Assembly: GCF_900110495.1 (NCBI RefSeq)
Contig: NZ_FODX01000001.1
Location: 682,001-746,000, forward strand
Source: Nitrosovibrio sp. Nv6
GTDB taxonomy: Bacteria > Pseudomonadota > Gammaproteobacteria > Burkholderiales > Nitrosomonadaceae
Reading direction: 5' to 3'
DNA: 64,000 nucleotides
The position numbers were made by a program, and so were the translations under genes. Below, one piece after another: positions 7,861-30,771 of the stretch. Below the pieces are notes generated by a model that saw only the letters and a list, made by a program, of their open reading frames with translations, searched no databases and was not told where the DNA came from. Each line of letters begins with the position of its first letter. Position 1 is the first letter of the stretch.

Positions 7861-8084
7861 AAACAGTGGATGAATTCATGATTGAGGCGTTCGGCCAGCC
7901 TCGCGACCCGCGCAGCCCGGAATACAAGATTGGCGTGTGGGCAGCACTCGAATACCGCGTCAATGGGAAAAAAACCGCTTTCCCATATGTGTTGGGAACC
8001 GCCGCTGCCGACGCTTATTTTTCAGGCATGGATGAGGGGCACAGGATCTGGCGCCAAGCCTCCTATACGGGTACGCAAGATTAA
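7857..8084 (+). CDS. Small phage protein, unrecognised
   Basis: A 75-residue protein coupled to the previous gene by ATGA. It has an N-terminal TVDEFMIEAFGQPRDPRS segment and aromatic residues spread through the rest (FPYVLGTAAADAYFSGMDEG). No motif identifies a function. Similar small proteins are common in early phage operons, where they are often host-takeover or accessory factors. Confidence 0.55.
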   Translation: MKTVDEFMIEAFGQPRDPRSPEYKIGVWAALEYRVNGKKTAFPYVLGTAAADAYFSGMDEGHRIWRQASYTGTQD

Positions 8085-8166
8085 AAAACGAATCCCCGCG
8101 CTAGCTGCCGGCAAGGGGAATCGGATCCACAAAGGCAGCATGACTGATCACCTGGAGGAGCGAGCG

Positions 8167-8844
8167 ATGAAACGTAACAGATGTTTGACCAATGATGAGG
8201 AAGTGACCCTGCGCCGGATGATGAAGCGCAGGGGCGATGCGCAGGGGCGGCGCGACTATGCGTGGGTGCGGCTGCTGCTGACCACGGGCATGCGGCTGAA
8301 TGAATTCAGTCTGCTGACGATAGGCGATGCGCGGGCGTCCTTTGTAAGCGGGCGGTTGTTCATCCCGAAGGAGCAGCGCAAGCGGGAGGCCTGCGACCTC
8401 GCGGTGTACGCCAAGGGCGAAGCGCTGGATGCATTGCGGGACCTTGTTGGGGTGTGCGCCGAGATGGCGGATATGTCCGCCGCACGGTTGCCGGATAGCC
8501 ACCCGCTGGTGCTTTCGCGTAACGGTAAGGCGATGTCTCCCCGCGCATACCAGCAGCGCATGAAGGAGTTGGCGCGAGAGGCCGGGATAGACCCGGCAAT
8601 CTCTCCCCACTGGTTGCGGCATACGTTTGCCGTGACCTTCCTCGAGGCGAGCGAGGGCAGTCCCCAGGCCGCGCTGCTGCGGTTGAAAAACCTGCTCGGC
8701 CATACGAGCATTGCCTCGTGCATGGAGTACCTGACCATGAGCCGCGGCGATGTCGGCACTGAGATCGAGCGCATTTTTCCTTCCCGCCGGCGCTTGCGTG
8801 CACCGGCCCTGCGGAAGGCCTACGAAGCGAGGACAGGGGCATGA
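8167..8844 (+). CDS. Tyrosine recombinase, catalytic-domain-only
   Basis: The start at 8167 follows GGAGGAG; longer in-frame extensions overlap the previous gene and lack a ribosome site. The 225-residue product carries the full tyrosine-recombinase signature: Arg in TTGMRLNE, HWLRHTFA, LLGHTS and the nucleophile region CMEYLTM. It lacks the N-terminal core-binding (SAM-like) domain of ordinary integrases, or has only a rudiment of it. It sits deep in the early operon rather than at an attachment site, so it may act in genome resolution, dimer processing or DNA inversion rather than integration. All catalytic residues appear present. Confidence 0.8.
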   Translation: MKRNRCLTNDEEVTLRRMMKRRGDAQGRRDYAWVRLLLTTGMRLNEFSLLTIGDARASFVSGRLFIPKEQRKREACDLAVYAKGEALDALRDLVGVCAEMADMSAARLPDSHPLVLSRNGKAMSPRAYQQRMKELAREAGIDPAISPHWLRHTFAVTFLEASEGSPQAALLRLKNLLGHTSIASCMEYLTMSRGDVGTEIERIFPSRRRLRAPALRKAYEARTGA

Positions 8845-17829: not shown

Positions 17830-18057
17830 ATGGGCAAGAGTTATCACATGTGCCTCGATGTCAGAGGCGCTTTAACGAACTGGTCGGATAGAAATTTCAG
17901 GGGAGTATTCACGCATGACGATGGTCGTAAGATGACGCCGGCTGAGGCTAAATCCAATTTACTGGACGAGTTATCCAAGGGGCATGAGGTTATTCCTTGT
18001 GGGAAGTGTGACAACTTTGATTTCTCGGGAGAGGGATGCCTTGGGCATGATGCTTAA
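17830..18057 (+). CDS. Small Cys-rich phage protein
   Basis: The start at 17830 is chosen because GGGAGGAG ends six bases upstream. The 75-residue product ends with a putative zinc-binding cluster (PCGKCDNFDFSGEGC). It is coupled to the PAPS-reductase-like gene, which starts inside its last codons. The arrangement suggests a partner or small subunit, but function is unknown. Confidence 0.6.
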   Translation: MGKSYHMCLDVRGALTNWSDRNFRGVFTHDDGRKMTPAEAKSNLLDELSKGHEVIPCGKCDNFDFSGEGCLGHDA

Positions 18058-19000
18058 CAAGAAAATCCGCCATGTCGTCAGCATTTCAGGTGGGAAGGAC
18101 AGTACGGCAACATTAGAGCTGGCGCTTTCCAATTGTCCGCGGGAAAGCATCATCCCTATTTTTTGCGATACCGGAAACGAGCACGAAGCCGTAGATGAGT
18201 ATTTGGGCTACTTGGAGAAAATGTGCGCCATTCGTGTCATGCGATTAAAAGCGGATTTTTCCGAGCAGATCGCCGCAAAGCGTATGTTTATTGCGCGTGA
18301 CCAGCGTACACGACGTGACAACAACGGCCGCAGAGTTAGATGGAGCAACAAGGCCAAGCGTCGGGCTCTAAGCGTGCTACACCCAACCGGAAACCCGTTT
18401 CTAGATCTCTGCTTATGGAAAGGCCGTTTCCCTAGCCGCAAAGCCCAATTTTGCACTAAAGAGCTTAAGCGAAACATGGCAGTCGAGTTTCAGCTGAACC
18501 TGATTGACAAAGGTTTTAGCGTGCTGAGTTGGCAAGGTGTGAGACGAGATGAATCCCTGAACCGCCGCGATGCAAAGAAGATAGAGCGGGTGGGCCCAAG
18601 GCTTTGGGTTTTTAGGCCAATAATTGATTGGACGGCCCTGGATGTTTTTGAGTACTGCGCCAAGCGAGGATTGGACCACAATCCGCTCTATAAGCAGGGG
18701 ATGAAACGCGTCGGGTGTATGCCGTGCATCAATGTGAATAAGGGCGAACTCAGGCAAATAGCGGTCAGATTTCCTGAGCACATCAGCCGTATAGCTGGGT
18801 GGGAAAAACTTGTATCGGCTGCGAGCAAACGACAGGTTTCCACGTTTTTTGCTGCGTACAAAGACCCAACTGTGGAAATAGGCGACGTGCATAAGATCGT
18901 CGAATGGGCGCAAACCTCAAGAGGTGGACGCCAATATGATCTTCTTGGCGGTCTATCGGATACGTCAGCTTGTGCATCGGCTTATGGATTGTGCGAATGA
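18047..19000 (+). CDS. Phage PAPS-reductase-like (PP-loop) protein
   Basis: About 317 residues starting at 18047 or 18050, overlapping the Cys-rich gene. The PP-loop ATP-pyrophosphatase motif SGGKDST is near residue 15. Downstream are CDTGNEHEAVDEYL and a C-terminal Cys pair GCMPC that may hold an iron-sulfur cluster, as in DndC-like and phage PAPS-reductase family proteins. Likely chemistry is adenylation or sulfur transfer to a nucleotide or tRNA base. No Dnd or Queuosine partners are in the window, so the target is open. It is coupled to the next recombinase (ATGA). Confidence 0.75.
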   Translation: MMLNKKIRHVVSISGGKDSTATLELALSNCPRESIIPIFCDTGNEHEAVDEYLGYLEKMCAIRVMRLKADFSEQIAAKRMFIARDQRTRRDNNGRRVRWSNKAKRRALSVLHPTGNPFLDLCLWKGRFPSRKAQFCTKELKRNMAVEFQLNLIDKGFSVLSWQGVRRDESLNRRDAKKIERVGPRLWVFRPIIDWTALDVFEYCAKRGLDHNPLYKQGMKRVGCMPCINVNKGELRQIAVRFPEHISRIAGWEKLVSAASKRQVSTFFAAYKDPTVEIGDVHKIVEWAQTSRGGRQYDLLGGLSDTSACASAYGLCE

Positions 19001-19998
19001 CTAATCTGATCGAAAACTTCCTCGAGTTCAAGCAGCGCAACGCCGGCAGGTCCGATCGCACTATTCACGCTTATCGCCTGGCGCTTAGGCGGATGGTTGA
19101 ATACTTTGGCGATCAGGATCTTCGCCAGATCACGCAGGATGAATTGCTCGCGTTCACTGGGCCATATCTCCACAAAATGGGGTTGCGTGACCCGGTAAGC
19201 CGTCGCCCGCACGTTGCCGCAGTTCGTGGTTTCTACAGCTGGCTGGCTTCGACAAAGCGGATCCGTAGCAACCCAGCCGAGAATTTGCCTTATCCGGATA
19301 GAGGTCGCCGGATCCCGCGCGTGATGACGCTGGCCAGCGCCACCAAGCTTATGTGGGAGCCGGACTTTAATACCTTTGCTGGGGTGCGCGACGGCGCTAT
19401 TCTCGCGCTGCTCGTAGGTTGTGGACTGCGTGTGTCTGGCCTGATAGCCCTCAACGAAGGCAATATCATCCAGGATGAGATCGACGGCAAGGTGCGCATG
19501 CTGATCAAGGTGGTCGAGAAAGGCGATAAGCAGCGCAAGCTGCCTATCCCGCCAGAGGCGGACTTGCTGCTACGGCTCTACCTTGATCATGCGGATCTTA
19601 AACAGATAAACCGGCGCCTGCCTGATGGTGATCAAGTTTTGTTTGTGAGCCTGATGAACAGGACAGTCACGCCTGATCAGTACCACGGCGAGCGCCGGCG
19701 TCTTAATCGTAGAGCAGTGCTGCAGATGATCAAGAAATACGGCAAGCGGGCCGGCATATCCGAGGATCAAATCCATCCGCACGCCATGCGTCACCTGTTC
19801 GGTACCGAGCTGGCCGAGGATGGGGTTGATATCATCGCCCGCCAACGCTTGATGGGACATGAGGATGCCAAGAGCACAGCCATCTACGACCACATGGCCA
19901 TGCGCAAGCTGACCCGCGAAGCGGATCGGGCCAACCCCCTGGCTAAAATAAAAACGCCGGTCAGCGATCTTTTGAAGAGACTCAACAAGCAGTCGTAA
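18997..19998 (+). CDS. Tyrosine recombinase
   Basis: The 333-residue product starts at 18997 (ATGA overlap with the previous stop). It has an N-terminal core-binding domain (EFKQRNAGRSDRTIHAYRLA) and a complete catalytic set: Arg in VGCGLRVSGLIAL, HPHAMRH, LMGHEDAKST and Tyr in AIYDHMA. It looks like a XerC/D-type integrase. Its own attachment site is not visible near it. Because the outer end of the prophage is served by a serine integrase, this protein may catalyse a second event such as dimer resolution or may be inherited from an earlier element. Confidence 0.85.
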   Translation: MTNLIENFLEFKQRNAGRSDRTIHAYRLALRRMVEYFGDQDLRQITQDELLAFTGPYLHKMGLRDPVSRRPHVAAVRGFYSWLASTKRIRSNPAENLPYPDRGRRIPRVMTLASATKLMWEPDFNTFAGVRDGAILALLVGCGLRVSGLIALNEGNIIQDEIDGKVRMLIKVVEKGDKQRKLPIPPEADLLLRLYLDHADLKQINRRLPDGDQVLFVSLMNRTVTPDQYHGERRRLNRRAVLQMIKKYGKRAGISEDQIHPHAMRHLFGTELAEDGVDIIARQRLMGHEDAKSTAIYDHMAMRKLTREADRANPLAKIKTPVSDLLKRLNKQS

Positions 19999-20223
19999 TA
20001 CAAGGCAGGCATCGAAGCACGTGATTCGGGTTTGTGGATGGCGCAACCCATATAAGGGGATGCATCATCGGAGAGAGGAAGTAAGCAGCAGTAGGCTTCT
20101 TGTGGTGATCTGGCAGGTGTCGACAACTTTGACAAATATCGGGCTAAATCTGTCTGGTTCCCACAACTAGGGTAATGCGCACTTTGGTGATAAAGCGCAA
20201 TTGGGCAACGGCAACATGAGGGT

Positions 20224-20727
20224 TTGAGAGTGATAAACGATGATGAAAAGCGAAGTTCAGATGGGGGAATTGGCGCATCAGGTCAGCCAGCCGACTCACC
20301 TGCCGATGGGGTGGGGGGTCGGCAGGCATCCTCACCCCATCCCGACAGGGGGGGTGGGTACCAGAATAACTGCACGGTTTTGAACTTCGGGCTTTCGGAA
20401 GAAAAAAAACGCGACCAGCGTCTGGATGAATTGCAAAAAATGGGACTACAGCGCATCTGGATAGATATCGCGGAAAAAATTGGCGTGGATAATTTGTTGA
20501 TAGCCTGGCGCATGCTCGATTCGGATCAAGCTAACCATGCCGATGACGGGCGCTTACTCATCCCGATCAGGCGGTACCGGACTTACATAAGATACCAACG
20601 GAATCGGTATATCGAGTCTCTGGTCGAGATGAATCTTTCCCCGCGCGAGATAAAGGAGAAAATTGAACGGCAGTTATGTGAAAAGATCAGCGTCCGTAAC
20701 ATATTGCGGATTTCGAAGCGGGGATAG
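20224..20727 (+). CDS. Putative DNA-binding protein upstream of the integrase
   Basis: A 167-residue protein; the first codon is TTG (20224) or GTG (20230). The N-terminal ~60 residues are Gly/Pro/Ser-rich and unusual, encoded by a GC-rich region with a TCGGCAG/CTGCCGA inverted repeat. The C-terminal ~90 residues are basic, with SPREIKEKIERQLCEKISVR, which could form an HTH. It ends eight bases before the serine integrase, so it is a candidate recombination directionality factor or regulator. That role is inferred only. Confidence 0.5.
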   Translation: MRVINDDEKRSSDGGIGASGQPADSPADGVGGRQASSPHPDRGGGYQNNCTVLNFGLSEEKKRDQRLDELQKMGLQRIWIDIAEKIGVDNLLIAWRMLDSDQANHADDGRLLIPIRRYRTYIRYQRNRYIESLVEMNLSPREIKEKIERQLCEKISVRNILRISKRG

Positions 20728-20735
20728 GATCAGTT

Positions 20736-22313
20736 ATGGCAGAACAGACGGCGATCATTTACGCTCGGGTTTCCACATCGCGCCAGGCTGATGACGGACT
20801 CCCGATTGCAAGCCAGATCGAGCAAGGGCATAAAAAGGCCGGTTTACTCGGAGCCCTGGTGGTCAGAGTATTCACGGACGCCGGCATTTCCGGCAGAACC
20901 GACGAGAGGCCAGCCTTCCGCGATGCTGTTGCCTATTGCAAAGCGTATGGCGTGGATTACTTCGTTTGTTGGAGCACGTCGCGTTTCGCTCGGAACAAGC
21001 TCGATGCCGCCCTCTATAAGCGTGACCTGGAGAAATGCGGTACTCGAGTAGTGTATGTCAGCGTAGACCTGGACAATCGGACCGATTCCGGCTGGATGAT
21101 GGAATCAATGCTCGAAATCTTCGACGAGCATTACAGTCGACAGGTCAGCGCTGATACGCTACGCAGTATGATAAAGAATGCGCGGGATGGATATTTCAAC
21201 GGTGGCCGGGTACCCTTTGGTTATATGGCGGTACCGGATGGCAAGCGGAAGCGGCTGGCAGTACTGGATGTGGAAGCTCAAATTATCAGGGACTTATTTG
21301 GGCTATATGTTGAGGGGATTGGGTGTAAAGCGATCGCCATGACGCTGAATGAGCGAGCCCGATTGCGTCGCGGCATGCGGTGGAACAAGAACGTGGTTAC
21401 CGCTACATTGAAAAATGAGGTTTATACCGGCAAGGTGGTATTCAATCGAACCGATAGCCGAACCGGGAGAGCCAGATCCAGGGAAGAGTGGATAATCACT
21501 CAGAGTCACCCTGCAATCATCGAGGAGGGAGTTTTTATGAGCGTTCAGGAATTGTTTGGCGAGCGGACCCCGGTTGACGGTGGTGGATCCCCGCATAGCG
21601 GGCTTGTTTTTACAGGGCTATTGCGGTGCGGGAAATGTGGACTGGCAATGCGATCGGAGAATGGTACCGGACGGAGCCGACGTTACCATTACTACAATTG
21701 CCAGACAGCGCAAAAAGGGGGTGGCTGTGAAAATCGGCGAATAGCCGCCCCTGATCTTGATCAATGGCTCATTCAGGCGATCATGGACAAGGTGCTTACC
21801 CGAGAAAGGCTGGTTGAGACGATTTCTGAATTGCACGAGATTACCGGACGCTGGGTAAAGGACCGTGCCAGGCGACGGGAGGAAATAGTAAAAACCCTGC
21901 GCGATGTAGAGTCTAGGTTAAAAAAACTCTTTGATGTGCTTGAGCTGCATGGGAAAGATGCCCCGAACATGGGCGACCTCACTGAGCGTCTGCGTGAGCT
22001 GAAGCAGCAGCGGAGCAGCCTTGATCTTCAGCTTGTTACCATTGAAGAGGAGGAAATCCCGATCATCCCGATCACTGAAAGCGATGTGCAGGAGATGGCG
22101 GATTTGCTGCGGGATATTGTGGAGACTACAGGCGATCAGAAAAAACTAAGGCTGTTCTTCTCATCATTCATCGATCAAATTGTGGTGAATGACAAGGGCG
22201 TGAGGATCGAATACCGCGCGGAAAAATTGGTAAACCAAACCGGATTTGATACGGTTCGTAGTAAGGCTCGGTGGCTCCCCGACCAGGGCTCGAACCTGGG
22301 ACCTGCGGATTAA
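20736..22313 (+). CDS. Large serine recombinase (integrase)
   Basis: A 525-residue large serine integrase. The catalytic Ser13 sits in YARVSTSRQ, followed by the resolvase domain (RPAFRDAVAYCKA, CWSTSRFARN), the recombinase domain with GGRVPFGYM, a zinc ribbon (RCGKCG ... NCQTAQKGGGC) and a coiled-coil region (~375-470). The last ~15 residues are read from the tRNA-Asn gene in the antisense direction, so the original reading frame may end upstream or has been extended by integration. Expected role: integration and, with a directionality factor, excision. Confidence 0.9.
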   Translation: MAEQTAIIYARVSTSRQADDGLPIASQIEQGHKKAGLLGALVVRVFTDAGISGRTDERPAFRDAVAYCKAYGVDYFVCWSTSRFARNKLDAALYKRDLEKCGTRVVYVSVDLDNRTDSGWMMESMLEIFDEHYSRQVSADTLRSMIKNARDGYFNGGRVPFGYMAVPDGKRKRLAVLDVEAQIIRDLFGLYVEGIGCKAIAMTLNERARLRRGMRWNKNVVTATLKNEVYTGKVVFNRTDSRTGRARSREEWIITQSHPAIIEEGVFMSVQELFGERTPVDGGGSPHSGLVFTGLLRCGKCGLAMRSENGTGRSRRYHYYNCQTAQKGGGCENRRIAAPDLDQWLIQAIMDKVLTRERLVETISELHEITGRWVKDRARRREEIVKTLRDVESRLKKLFDVLELHGKDAPNMGDLTERLRELKQQRSSLDLQLVTIEEEEIPIIPITESDVQEMADLLRDIVETTGDQKKLRLFFSSFIDQIVVNDKGVRIEYRAEKLVNQTGFDTVRSKARWLPDQGSNLGPAD

Positions 22314-24105: not shown

Positions 24106-25368
24106 ATGATCCAAAACATCAGGACACGCTCCAAGACCGGATTGCTGGTCACTGTCTTGGCAATTGCCGCCGCCACTTTGTTTGTCTGTCCTATGGCCAA
24201 GGCGGATGCAGTTACCGATTGGAACCGCGTGGCCGGGGGTATTGTTGTCGATGCGAACTTGGGACCGCTGCCGGCCGACCGGGTGTTGGCCATTGTTCAT
24301 ACAGCAGTATACGAGGCTGCAAACGCAATTACTAGACGCTATCCAGGTGACCCATCAAACGGACCCAAGCTGAAGGCGCTACCGGGAGCCTCGGTAGATG
24401 CCGCCATTGCATCTGCAGCTCGCACCGTGCTGGCGGAACTCGTCCCGTCGGGAAAGACAGCTATCGAAGCTGCTTACCACGCTGCGCTGGCCCTGGTCCC
24501 CGGCGGTTCGGCGAAGACCGAGGGAATCTCCGTCGGAGAAAAAGCTGCGGCTGCGATCCTGACGCGACGCGCGAATGACGGCATCGCGGGGGGAGAGACG
24601 TATCGGCCTCATACGTCACCAGGCATGTACGTGCCTACCGTAATACCGGAAGCTCCGCACTGGTTACAGATCAAGCCATGGCTGATGGCGAGTGCTTCCC
24701 AGTTCCGCCCCGGCCCTCCCCCACCGCTGACCAGTGAGTTATGGGCGCGCGATTATAACGAGGTCAAAACCCTCGGCAGCAAACACAGTACGCGCCGCAG
24801 TGCGAAACAGACCGCTATTGCCCATTTCTGGGAGGAAGTGATGCCGCCCATCTATCACGGAATCGTGCGCTCCGTTGCCGACGTTCCGGGAAGAGAGATT
24901 ACGCAGAATGCACGCCTTTTTGCGATGGTGACTCAGGCCAGCAACGATGCCCTGATCGCGGTCTTTGATGCGAAGTACCACTATGGCTTCTGGCGGCCGG
25001 TCACGGCGATTCGCAACGGCGACATCGACGGCAACGACGCAACCGAACGGGACCCGTCGTGGCTGCCCTTTATTGACACGCCCATGCATCCCGAATATCC
25101 ATGTGCACACTGCATTGTTTCCGGAGCTGTCGGCGCGGTGCTGCAAGCGGAGATTGGCGTAGGACCCACCCCGCTTTTAACGACTACCAGTCATGCTGCT
25201 GGCGGCGTAGCACGAAGCTGGACAGGAATCGATGAGTTTATTCAGGAGGTTGCCAATGCACGCATTTATGATGGTGTGCACTACCGTAACTCCGCAGAGG
25301 TGGGCACCGCCATGGGAAAACAGATTGGCGAGTTGGCGGCCACGAAGTATCCCGGACCGATCAGGTAG
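24106..25368 (+). CDS. Vanadium-dependent haloperoxidase-like (PAP2 superfamily) exported protein
   Basis: A 420-residue protein with an N-terminal signal peptide (TGLLVTVLAIAAATLFV, cleavage near AKADA). The fold is a vanadium-chloroperoxidase-type PAP2 bundle: KYHYGFWRPVTAIR (~290), HPEYPCAHCIVSGA (~328-341) and YDGVHYRNSAEVG with His392. The usual serine of the vanadate-binding P-S-G-H loop is replaced here by C333-A334-H335. The axial His of canonical enzymes may be His392. Expected to be a periplasmic or secreted oxidase/phosphatase, but the motif change weakens the activity assignment. Confidence 0.8.
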   Translation: MIQNIRTRSKTGLLVTVLAIAAATLFVCPMAKADAVTDWNRVAGGIVVDANLGPLPADRVLAIVHTAVYEAANAITRRYPGDPSNGPKLKALPGASVDAAIASAARTVLAELVPSGKTAIEAAYHAALALVPGGSAKTEGISVGEKAAAAILTRRANDGIAGGETYRPHTSPGMYVPTVIPEAPHWLQIKPWLMASASQFRPGPPPPLTSELWARDYNEVKTLGSKHSTRRSAKQTAIAHFWEEVMPPIYHGIVRSVADVPGREITQNARLFAMVTQASNDALIAVFDAKYHYGFWRPVTAIRNGDIDGNDATERDPSWLPFIDTPMHPEYPCAHCIVSGAVGAVLQAEIGVGPTPLLTTTSHAAGGVARSWTGIDEFIQEVANARIYDGVHYRNSAEVGTAMGKQIGELAATKYPGPIR

Positions 25369-27869: not shown

Positions 27870-28231
27870 GCTTATATTTTCCTTGCTAGCTCAACCTGAA
27901 TTCTCTTCGTCCCAACTCCCGCTGAATACCGGTACACCAGGGCACAGATAAAACCTCAATCACACCGCTCGCTCAGTCCTGCTGCTGCGGGCATGAAACT
28001 GCGCCGATCTGTTGCGCGGACAATAGCAGGAACTGCGAGTAACAAAATATGTCGAACCTGTAGTTTAATATGTGGATATCGCAGGCGGCATGGCTGAGCC
28101 AAGTGATTGGACCGATCTGGCTTTCACGCAGCGCAAACTGAGATTGGAGTCGGTAGCACTGTTTTTTTTATTGCTCTATATGCAGCACCTATTGCGGATT
28201 AATCCAAATTCTATTGATAAGGAGAGCGGAA
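27870..28231. other. Divergent promoter region between hss and the His-rich protein
   Basis: No gene. It must contain both leftward and rightward promoters. The right side ends in AAGGAG at 28219-28224, seven bases upstream of the ATG at 28232. Confidence 0.5.
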
Positions 28232-28597
28232 ATGACTAATTGTATCCTGCCCCAGCACGAAAATCACACTCATCCCCACGGCCCGGAGTGCGACCACACA
28301 GGTATTGTGCATGGCAACCATGTCGATTATCTGCACGATGGCCACCTGCATCACCCGCACGGGGATCATATCGATGAACATGTGATAGATATAACGGAGA
28401 TCAATCCGGACAGCTGCACGCCCGCCCACAAATGCGCGGGACACCAGCAGGAACATATGCACGGGCCTGATTGTGGACATGAAAGAGTCCCGCACGGCGA
28501 CCACATCGACTATCTGGTCGATGGGCACCTCCATTACCCCCACGATGATCATTGTGACGATCACGGCCCCGTAACGCTGGCCGATCCGCTTGCCTGA
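28232..28597 (+). CDS. His-rich tandem-repeat metal-binding protein
   Basis: A 121-residue protein starting at 28232. It has two ~35-residue tandem units: HGPECDHTGIVHGNHVDYL with DGHLHHPHGDHIDEH, and HGPDCGHERVPHGDHIDYLV with DGHLHYPHDDHCDDH. A Cys-containing linker (SCTPAHKCAGH) joins them. Histidines make up roughly a quarter of the residues, so the protein should bind several Zn, Ni or Cu ions. It has no signal peptide, so it is likely cytoplasmic, a buffer or metallochaperone. The repeat suggests internal duplication. Confidence 0.8.
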   Translation: MTNCILPQHENHTHPHGPECDHTGIVHGNHVDYLHDGHLHHPHGDHIDEHVIDITEINPDSCTPAHKCAGHQQEHMHGPDCGHERVPHGDHIDYLVDGHLHYPHDDHCDDHGPVTLADPLA

Positions 28598-28740: not shown

Positions 28741-30771
28741 TCAGATTGTATTAATCAATGCAGGATGAATTAACTCGATCTCGTGAATATGACGGCCTTG
28801 TTGTGGGGGTGAATAGGCGCTGTAGCTGGAAATAGCAGAGGGCTCCAGATCGCCTACAATTTGTTCAAGATCCGATAATCGCAGCCCTTGACGTACAAGA
28901 TAAGCGATATAGCTATGTCGAATCGCTTCAGCAGTAATTTCCTGGGAGTCTGGCAGACCCGAGTCCACTGCAGCACAGACCAAAGCAGCCGACAGGTCGA
29001 TACGCGTTCCAGGATCATCAGCACTCCATACTGGCCTGCCATCCGACTGCATAAGCAGCGATTTAAGCGAATTGCTCAGGGGAATGGTTCTCGGCGACGC
29101 TCCCCTCAGGTTGATGGTTCCTGCTGCCAGATTGATTTGATCCGGTGTTAAAGATGCGGCCTCATCAATATTCATGCCGCTAAGCAATAACCCGATCAAC
29201 TGCTTTCCTTTAAGGTTTGAAGCGTTGATCAAAGTCCTTAACTGATGACTGGAAAGTTCTCTATAAGGAGGAACAGTCGGGCCCGACAGGGTATTGGTTG
29301 TTTTCTGTTCCAGTGAACCGGCCGCAGTACCGAGCGCAGTATGAGGAGGATGGTCGATCAATTTGGCGGCAGGCTCTGGATAATTCTGTACACCGAAAAT
29401 CGCAATAGATGGCTGCTGTTCTTTCTTTTGAGTCAAATATTCGAAAATCCACACGCTGAAGAGTCCCAGCAGTAAAGAACCCGCTACCGCTATCAAAGCT
29501 TCACGGCTATAGTCAGGCCTCACCGGTTTGGCGGACTCATAAGCCCGGTTGATGACGGTTACCTGCGGATATTTATCCTTGCGGCCGGTTTTGACTTGAA
29601 CCAATCGCTCCTGGGCGTCACGATAGAGTGTTTCCAAACCCTCCAGATCGGTTTTTAACGCGTCGTGCTCGGCAAATTTCGATGTGAATGCGAACGCCTG
29701 CTTTTTATGCGCGTCCAGTTGGGCCCGAATGCCGCTAGTGGTTTGTTGTGCAGCGGCATAAGCCATTTCGGCATCCGTCAATACCACGTTTTGACCATAC
29801 CGGCGCTTGCTATTGACCGCAGCTTCCAGTTCCTTGATTTGCTCAGGAATAGATTTCAAATCGGGTTGCAGGTTTAAATATTCGCGGGTGAATTTTTTGT
29901 CGAATTCGGCAAGTTTCTCGCGCAAATTCTGCAATCGCGTTTCGAGATCGACCAAACTGCCCTTTTCGTCGTCAGGCACCACCGCTTTTCCCCGGGCAAT
30001 AGCCACTCTGACAGAGTCCAGCTTCGATTTCGCCTTGACTTCTTCCTCGCTGGCTTTGTTGAGCGACTCATTCAGGCCTCTAAGCCGGGCGGCTGCTTCA
30101 TTTTCTTCGCGTTGGGTAGAAGAGATATCATGATTTCGTCTGAACGTCTCCAGCGCTACCCGTGCGGAATCTACCTTGTCAGCAAGTCCCTCCAGCTCGT
30201 CCTCCACAATACGCTGAGTATTGCTTGTCAATTTTTTGACTTCTTCAGCCCTTGCATCGAGGTACACATCGATCCAGGTATTGATGAGCAGCGGCAAAAA
30301 TTTCGGATCGGTACCCTCTGCCACTATTTCGACGAGATTGGTTTCCGAGACGGGCTCGACATTCAATAAATTCTGAATATCCGATGCCGTCAACTGGGAT
30401 AGAAATTTGCCTACAGGCGAGGCCTTGAGTCGCGACACAGTCTCGGCAGCGATCTCATGCCCTAAAAAAATCTGTCGTTGAATAGCCACGTGCTGAATGT
30501 CCGCATCGCTGCTTTCGCGGTCTATGGCCGTCATAGCCGAGGTCAGCAAGGTTGCGCTGCTACGATAAACGGCGGGTTGGCTGTAGATATAAGCCAGGCT
30601 GATCGCGGCGCTGATTAAAAACGCCAAACTGAAAATGCTGAATCTGCGTGACCGGTACCACGGCTGCTCATGCCCACCTGCCAATTGCTGGCTACTACCG
30701 GCCAGGCGCGAACTGATCCTGTTTCTCATAAACCGGGGTAAATTCCCAAAGTTCGATAAACGCGAAAGCAA
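28741..30771 (-). CDS. Wzz/GumC-type chain-length protein fused to a degenerate tyrosine-recombinase-like domain
   Basis: A 676-residue protein; TTG start at 30771 or Met15. TM1 lies near residues 44-64 and TM2 at 424-445. Between them is a periplasmic region with Wzz-like N-terminal fold and a long coiled coil (~190-385). The cytoplasmic tail, residues ~505-655, follows the tyrosine recombinase plan: GMNIDEAASLTPDQINL, RTIPLSNSLKSLL, AEAIRHSYIAYLVRQGL, then LEQIVGDLEPSAISSYSAY. Catalytic positions are mostly lost (first Arg is Asn534, the paired His positions are Ala/Leu-like), but Arg618 and a Tyr at 650/653 remain. In Wzc proteins this location holds a BY-kinase. It is not beside other polysaccharide genes. 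Confidence 0.8.
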   Translation of the reverse strand: MLSRLSNFGNLPRFMRNRISSRLAGSSQQLAGGHEQPWYRSRRFSIFSLAFLISAAISLAYIYSQPAVYRSSATLLTSAMTAIDRESSDADIQHVAIQRQIFLGHEIAAETVSRLKASPVGKFLSQLTASDIQNLLNVEPVSETNLVEIVAEGTDPKFLPLLINTWIDVYLDARAEEVKKLTSNTQRIVEDELEGLADKVDSARVALETFRRNHDISSTQREENEAAARLRGLNESLNKASEEEVKAKSKLDSVRVAIARGKAVVPDDEKGSLVDLETRLQNLREKLAEFDKKFTREYLNLQPDLKSIPEQIKELEAAVNSKRRYGQNVVLTDAEMAYAAAQQTTSGIRAQLDAHKKQAFAFTSKFAEHDALKTDLEGLETLYRDAQERLVQVKTGRKDKYPQVTVINRAYESAKPVRPDYSREALIAVAGSLLLGLFSVWIFEYLTQKKEQQPSIAIFGVQNYPEPAAKLIDHPPHTALGTAAGSLEQKTTNTLSGPTVPPYRELSSHQLRTLINASNLKGKQLIGLLLSGMNIDEAASLTPDQINLAAGTINLRGASPRTIPLSNSLKSLLMQSDGRPVWSADDPGTRIDLSAALVCAAVDSGLPDSQEITAEAIRHSYIAYLVRQGLRLSDLEQIVGDLEPSAISSYSAYSPPQQGRHIHEIELIHPALINTI

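Follow-up and report, generated by a model that had tools for sequence, protein, structure and literature searches.

In PCP-2 co-polymerase systems it is the cytoplasmic module that determines the oligomeric state, and the BY-pseudokinases EcpK and HfsB have been proposed to be scaffolds that work without phosphorylation (PMC12004946). Octamer cycling has been described for Wzc (PMC8285477), and the oligomeric cycling of PCP-2 proteins is thought to be set by the cytoplasmic kinase. Tyrosine-recombinase folds have been studied in another context. The C-terminal helix of the archaeal recombinase XerA packs in cis, with delivery in trans proposed, and its loss impairs higher-order assemblies (PMC3646895). 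MrpR keeps the Glu, the Lys, the Tyr and possibly an Arg and has lost the remaining catalytic residues; it is inactive as a recombinase and is a DNA-binding repressor (PMC10516654). The reuse of a dead recombinase as a repressor and the reuse of a dead kinase in PCPs are thus already known, each separately. No description of a PCP fused to a recombinase fold was found in the open-access PMC literature searched (subscription papers and protein-database annotations were outside the scope). To our knowledge no tyrosine-recombinase fold has previously been seen built into envelope machinery, and the fusion presented here would be the first.

The open reading frame at 28741-30771 on the reverse strand of the window, the 64,000-nucleotide stretch of Nitrosovibrio DNA analyzed here, was intact and open from a TTG at 30771 to the stop at 28741. 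The ATG at 30729 was the probable start, as its position was conserved in an alignment of 25 homologues, which gives a protein of 662 amino acids (CDS 28741..30729, reverse strand, as are all features of this protein below). The N-terminus read MRNR in the window protein and MKNR in many homologues. Residues are numbered from this ATG, and the numbers of an earlier first-pass annotation run 14 too high.

The N-terminal part of the protein was compared with known PCP families. The first transmembrane (TM) helix (residues 28-50; 30580..30648) was a helix in the AlphaFold model and a hydropathy peak, with the basic motif YRSRRF just before it in an N-terminus of net charge +3. The second (residues 407-433; 29431..29511) was likewise a modelled helix and a hydropathy peak. 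Between them lay the periplasmic helical region (residues 51-406; 29512..30579), in which the AlphaFold2 model placed long helices between residues 144 and 381. By model and hydropathy the protein thus fits the criterion for a PCP, a large helical periplasmic region with a TM helix on either side. The nearest sequence families were EpsF (NCBIfam TIGR03017; E 1.9e-16) and the XrtA chain-length protein (TIGR03007; E 2.1e-14), yet the scores of 59.8 and 52.6 bits were far under the respective curated cut-offs of 422.75 and 278.85 bits. When members were scanned singly against Pfam at E<=0.01, Wzz was found in 14/70 and GNVR in 12/70, and neither was found in the window protein. An EpsF-like protein of the same genome is a separate gene, and its open frame of 491 amino acids is too short to hold a recombinase tail.

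Model residues ~21-434 matched Wzc (Foldseek, 9r68, E 1.1e-9; VIA Z 13.4-15.3 across Wzc entries). The rmsd of these matches varied widely, from 3.4 to 23 A, and a Z near 13 can reflect an arrangement common in helical proteins; despite this caveat the Wzc match was backed by the EpsF sequence match. Like Wzc of E. coli (PCP-2a), the fusion protein has two TM helices, a mostly helical periplasmic region and a C-terminal cytoplasmic domain in the same position. However, the cytoplasmic domain of Wzc is a tyrosine autokinase, whereas the fusion protein has a recombinase fold there: no kinase-domain family was found in it in Pfam and NCBIfam scans, and the kinase place was modelled as a Xer catalytic domain. 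The protein is therefore predicted by the model to be a Wzc-like (PCP-2-type) inner-membrane PCP without a BY-kinase, and its role in polymer length or export, with Wzy/Wza, is inferred.

The tail (residues 486-662; 28744..29274) was then assigned to the tyrosine recombinases by HMM, PDB profile, model and conservation, the resemblance being above chance. On its own, it matched NCBIfam XerA_Arch (E 1.9e-7) and Pfam Phage_integrase (E 7.9e-5), both below the curated cut-offs. A search of the PDB with the single tail sequence gave XerA (4a8e) at E 5.7e-8, and a 70-row tail profile gave 1.8e-11 for the same entry; the profile also picked up the integron integrase 2a3v (9.5e-10) and, at E<=1, twelve further distinct sequences, nearly all of them tyrosine recombinases. 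Phage_integrase was detected in 33/70 family members (Pfam, E<=0.01), and the window protein showed only a weak integrase match. With matches weak or absent in the window protein and patchy among members, we infer that annotation pipelines could miss either half.

Modelled alone, the tail reached a pLDDT of 83.0 overall, with block means of at least 93 over residues 61-230 of the 233 modelled, and matched XerA with a VIA Z of 15.5 (2.9 A, 152 residues). Residues 486-662 of the full-length model gave the same Z (2.7 A, 151 residues). The full-length model had a pLDDT of 80.3 and a pTM of 0.39, so the relative placement of the domains was unreliable. The MrpR/YopR and SroF structures were also among the fold matches of the tail (Z 11-13). 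The core-binding domain of a recombinase was missing: at its place the model had a disordered cytoplasmic linker (residues 434-485; 29275..29430), with pLDDT <50 at 435-486, and no SAM-like Pfam match was found.

The first-pass annotation had claimed a Wzz/Wzc-type PCP, with two TM helices around a periplasmic region, that carries a degenerate tyrosine-recombinase domain at the cytoplasmic kinase position. Both halves of this claim held, the first by model, hydropathy, HMM and Wzc fold match, the second with the named motifs present. Two findings would have refuted it. The absence of any structural match between the tail and tyrosine recombinases was one, and the tail did match (XerA, Z 15.5); a fusion unique to this assembly and due to an error was the other, and the fusion recurs in many independent assemblies, which rules out an artefact as its source. 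With the folds predicted by the model, the fusion is very likely real, a Wzc-like PCP fold and a dead tyrosine-recombinase site both being present.

The active-site positions were examined in 71 sequences, the window protein and 70 loci; from a set of 74 loci, L096 and L117 were omitted because they lie at contig ends, L115 because its frame is broken and L109 because it has no tail. The 70-row alignments (69 loci and the window) also lack L119, which has a run-on C-terminus. Arg was found at the Arg-I position in none of the 71 sequences (Thr 41, Ser 22, Asp 6, Asn 2); the window protein has Asn520 there (29170..29172). The neighboring acidic residue was Glu in 71/71. His was absent from the His-II position in all 71, and the His-III position held Tyr in 34, His in 14 and other residues in the rest. 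The catalytic Lys, between G543 and R547, was present in only 9/71 and missing in 62, including the window protein, and the hairpin looks shortened. Arg-II (Arg604 in the window protein; 28918..28920) was Arg in 70/71; this conservation is partly ascertained, as one of the two search patterns used to fetch the set contained that Arg. The nucleophile Tyr (Tyr636; 28822..28824) was kept in 67/71, with Phe in two and Leu in two. In L046 it was replaced by Cys, and a profile search added three more distant members (L038-L040), which had lost both Arg-II and the Tyr. An Asn in place of the first Arg, a retained later Arg and a late Tyr had been read in the first-pass annotation (as Asn534 and Arg618 for the first two), and these assignments held as N520, R604 (Arg-II) and Y636.

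The loss of these residues makes recombinase catalysis very unlikely in these sequences; this is an inference from the established tyrosine-recombinase mechanism, and we take the tail to be dead as a recombinase on that basis. Other positions were strongly conserved. Six residues (G518, E523, R547, Y607, L611, and G626) were invariant in 70 sequences, and the C-terminal extension (residues 641-658) was conserved, with P641 in 68/71 and P656 in 70/71. A phosphotyrosine role for Y636 and Y639 was weighed only; both tyrosines are replaced in some members. Compared with XerA (4a8e and 5hxy), the tail shares the catalytic-domain fold (Z 15.4-15.5). However, it has lost Arg-I, His-II and mostly the Lys, it has no core-binding domain, and it is membrane-tethered and acidic.

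The charge of the tail bears on a first alternative, that the fusion is a membrane-tethered DNA-binding regulator in which the tail binds a DNA site and the PCP senses the state of the polymer or envelope, like a one-component transmembrane transcription factor. In its favor, dead tyrosine recombinases can be repressors (MrpR, PMC10516654), MrpR/YopR and SroF are among the fold matches, and Arg-II and the Tyr are mostly kept. However, the net charge of the tail had a median of -5 (range -13 to +2) and was negative in 70/71 sequences, while 12 recombinase domains of the window's own genome had net charges of 0 to +11. These 12 were drawn from 16 integrase matches, and the two halves of one gene, the window tail and a 27-residue fragment were omitted. 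The catalytic Lys is mostly gone from the tail, which also lacks the core-binding domain. MrpR possesses that domain, and it forms the DNA groove together with the catalytic domain. Like the tail, the phage repressors MrpR/YopR and SroF are reused tyrosine-recombinase folds, but they are not fused to a membrane PCP, and MrpR has a core-binding domain and binds DNA. The acidic tail and the absent core-binding domain argue against DNA binding, and this regulator is unlikely. DNA binding, an idea raised in the first-pass annotation, is disfavored and not excluded; there are no binding data, and the charge is that of the whole domain, with the local surface unmapped.

The distribution of the fusion was investigated in several genome samples. 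In the window's genus (g1) the full fusion was present in 22/23 genomes, the missing genome being 80% complete; in the same sample it was found in 3/5 genomes of genus g3 and in 0/9 of g2 and g4. Across the window's family 48/125 genomes matched, 22 from g1 and 26 from g3, with one of the g3 matches cut at a contig end. The order, class and phylum samples overlap. In the order sample 12/399 genomes matched at E<=1e-10 (10 full-length or nearly so, and 2 PCP-only), in the class sample 6/369, all full-length, and in the phylum sample 19/398 at E<=1e-12, with the tail in only 3 and the PCP only in 16. In the order of the methanotroph G674, 60/151 genomes matched; counted by eye from the table, 48 reached the tail (one split over two frames), 11 were tail-less and 1 was cut at a contig end. 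All 11 tail-less matches belonged to genus g607. A scan of genome contigs, which kept the best 80 of 88 relatives and gave 74 loci, several of them the same as other surveyed genomes, covered Nitrosospira, Nitrosovibrio, Nitrosomonas, Methylobacter, Methylotuvimicrobium, Methylomonas, Methylocaldum, Lamprocystis, Thiodictyon, Aromatoleum, Rubrivivax and others. The carriers are ammonia oxidizers, methanotrophs, Chromatiaceae and a few others, and the presence of the fusion in nearly all genomes of the window's genus and in many methanotrophs may bear on their biofilm or capsule biology. This spread prompted a possible link to intracytoplasmic membranes, which was dropped; Aromatoleum also carries the fusion, and so does Nitrosospira, which is not known to have such membranes.

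The history of the tail was analyzed on a PCP-core tree of 91 rows (a quick reconstruction with SH-aLRT support only and several long branches flagged), from which L027 and L133 (branch lengths >7, probably wrong frames) and one duplicate were left out. Thirteen outgroup PCPs all lay to one side of a branch whose support was 100. The presence of the tail required 3 changes on this tree, which fits one gain and two losses. The tail-less rows lay in two places: seven belonged to genus g607 (support 98), and the other, L109 from Litorirhabdus, fell in another subclade. Reading of the seven g607 loci (L169-L175) showed that the frame stops within the linker. These loci and L109 are natural tail-less orthologues, and L176-L179, also from g607, bear the tail; species of both kinds exist, in some cases in a single genus, and allow a direct functional comparison. 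That the tail had split off as a separate gene was unsupported, as no convincing separate tail gene was found in the 6 of 11 tail-less genomes searched. The best match there (7.4e-11, in G1334) overlaps an ordinary integrase fragment with the usual active-site motifs; the remaining tail-less genomes gave matches of 3e-5 or weaker, which were not examined, or none, and the tail-bearing controls gave 6.4e-43 to 7.7e-93.

In an earlier PCP-core tree, which omitted 13 near-duplicates and in which two of 16 outgroup rows were bad (L027 and L133), the Nitrosospira-type rows nested with Methylobacter (support 100), apart from Nitrosomonas. From this nesting we infer that the gene probably moved between methanotrophs and ammonia oxidizers, and it suggests separate transfers of the fusion gene between methane and ammonia oxidizers.

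Selection was estimated by the Nei-Gojobori method from 21 same-genus genes, using pairs with dS 0.15-1.2. Median dN/dS was lowest in the core (0.08, 24 pairs), followed by the tail (0.14, 20 pairs) and the linker (0.42, 62 pairs). The tail is therefore constrained and under purifying selection; the fusion is old and has been kept by selection. These data bear on a second alternative, in which the tail is a passive relic: an integrase that was once active, joined the PCP by accident and now drifts with no function. Three observations would suit a relic: the tail changes a little faster than the PCP core, the tree shows it lost twice, and its active-site residues vary. However, its low dN/dS, its confident fold in the window protein, the six invariant residues and its retention over deep divergences make this explanation very unlikely.

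The source of the tail was sought by tblastn against 72,556 plasmid and 50,697 phage records, in which no match was found at E<=1e-3, and among viral contigs, where none of 52 pattern matches was a relative of the tail. The source recombinase is therefore unidentified, and a mobile-element origin with close living relatives was rejected as far as these records go.

We propose that the tail is a protein-protein assembly module. This is inferred, and no oligomer model, partner or polysaccharide is known. The dead recombinase domain would occupy the cytoplasmic BY-kinase place of a PCP-2-type co-polymerase. The catalytic domains of recombinases are known to sit side by side and swap the C-terminal helix with a neighbor. 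Membrane-tethered copies (eight, if the PCP forms an octamer as Wzc does) could therefore bind one another, or a partner, beneath the membrane. Such association could govern PCP oligomerization and polymer growth without tyrosine phosphorylation, as proposed for the pseudokinase scaffolds. The reading is favored by the role of the PCP-2 module in setting the oligomeric state, the role of the C-terminal helix in XerA and the conserved C-terminal extension. Like the fusion, EcpK/EpsV and HfsB/HfsA (PMC12004946) combine a PCP with a catalytically dead cytoplasmic module, whose proposed mode of action is protein contact with no phosphorylation. However, their module is a BY-pseudokinase and a separate protein, whereas that of the fusion is a dead tyrosine recombinase in the same chain; the relation is one of analogy and not of homology. 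Against the assembly module, some members have lost the tail and retained the PCP, so not every member needs it, and the Tyr and Arg-II are more conserved than a pure scaffold would require, though this is partly ascertainment. Resting on analogy with EcpK and HfsB, a phosphorylation-independent PCP variant of this kind could as readily prove wrong as right. The suggestion in the first-pass annotation of a binding or regulatory module is compatible with the data and unproven.

A bolder form of the assembly reading is possible and no more. It would make the fusion a further phosphorylation-independent PCP-2 class, with a dead tyrosine-recombinase domain standing in for the kinase ring; neighboring protomers might exchange the conserved C-terminal segment (residues ~641-660), docking it in the groove that the alphaN helix occupies in Xer/Cre synapses. 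If true, DNA-synapsis machinery would have been turned into a clamp on a polysaccharide exporter, fixing its oligomeric state. A natural and widespread protein with an unrelated, inactive DNA-enzyme fold in the kinase place suggests that the job of the kinase can be done without phosphorylation.

The gene neighborhood bears on a third alternative, that a separate cytoplasmic partner, be it a stand-alone kinase, a pseudokinase or a glycosyltransferase, docks on the tail, which does not self-assemble. PCP-2b proteins work with separate partners (PMC12004946), and a glycosyltransferase gene adjoins the PCP gene in 12 methanotroph loci (family TIGR04283 where tested, in L048 of Methylotuvimicrobium buryatense 5G only). 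However, the neighbors of the fusion gene differ between genera and are common only to relatives; no family is widely shared, the largest being present in 17, 14, and 13 of 75 loci, and the Nitrosospira and Nitrosomonas loci have no glycosyltransferase neighbor. A docking platform remains possible. A Pfam scan of 18 window proteins turned up no polysaccharide gene, which, like the differences in neighbors between genera, also counts against the assembly reading. In the methanotroph locus L070 the next downstream genes encode an XrtA/PEP-CTERM-system amidotransferase, GalE and a TIGR04063 glycosyltransferase, and each of these matches exceeds its NCBIfam cut-off; these neighbors fit a polysaccharide role for the fusion, though as a single case.

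Several further features of the loci were recorded. In L048, L058, L069, L083 and eight more, the glycosyltransferase gene (TIGR04283, 'arsenosugar biosynthesis', confirmed in L048 alone) lies just downstream in an apparent operon with the PCP gene, and in several such loci it is followed by genes for an apparent sterol-desaturase-like protein and a TIGR04282-like protein. A saccharopine-dehydrogenase-like gene neighbors the fusion gene in 13 loci. Some methanotroph loci have GH17-like ORFs, recognized by eye, no more than 9 kb away (10 ORFs across 7 loci); a link to a GH17 glucan system was dropped, as the GH17 query matched 0/125 genomes of the window's family and had no positive control.

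Within the window, a PAPS-reductase-domain gene overlaps an ordinary tyrosine integrase (18970-19998; Pfam 3.9e-26), which is followed by a serine recombinase (20736-22313), all within 17984-22313 on the forward strand. A second tyrosine integrase (8.4e-21) lies at 7882-8844 on the same strand, and both regions are likely mobile elements near the fusion gene. A His/Asp-rich protein with HxDH-type repeats (28214-28597, forward strand), for which no Pfam or NCBIfam match was found and which is possibly metal-binding, adjoins the fusion gene and is kept in 8 loci. A vanadium-haloperoxidase/PAP2-like protein (24106-25368, forward strand; VCPO_2nd 6.8e-07) is also conserved with the fusion gene in 8 loci.
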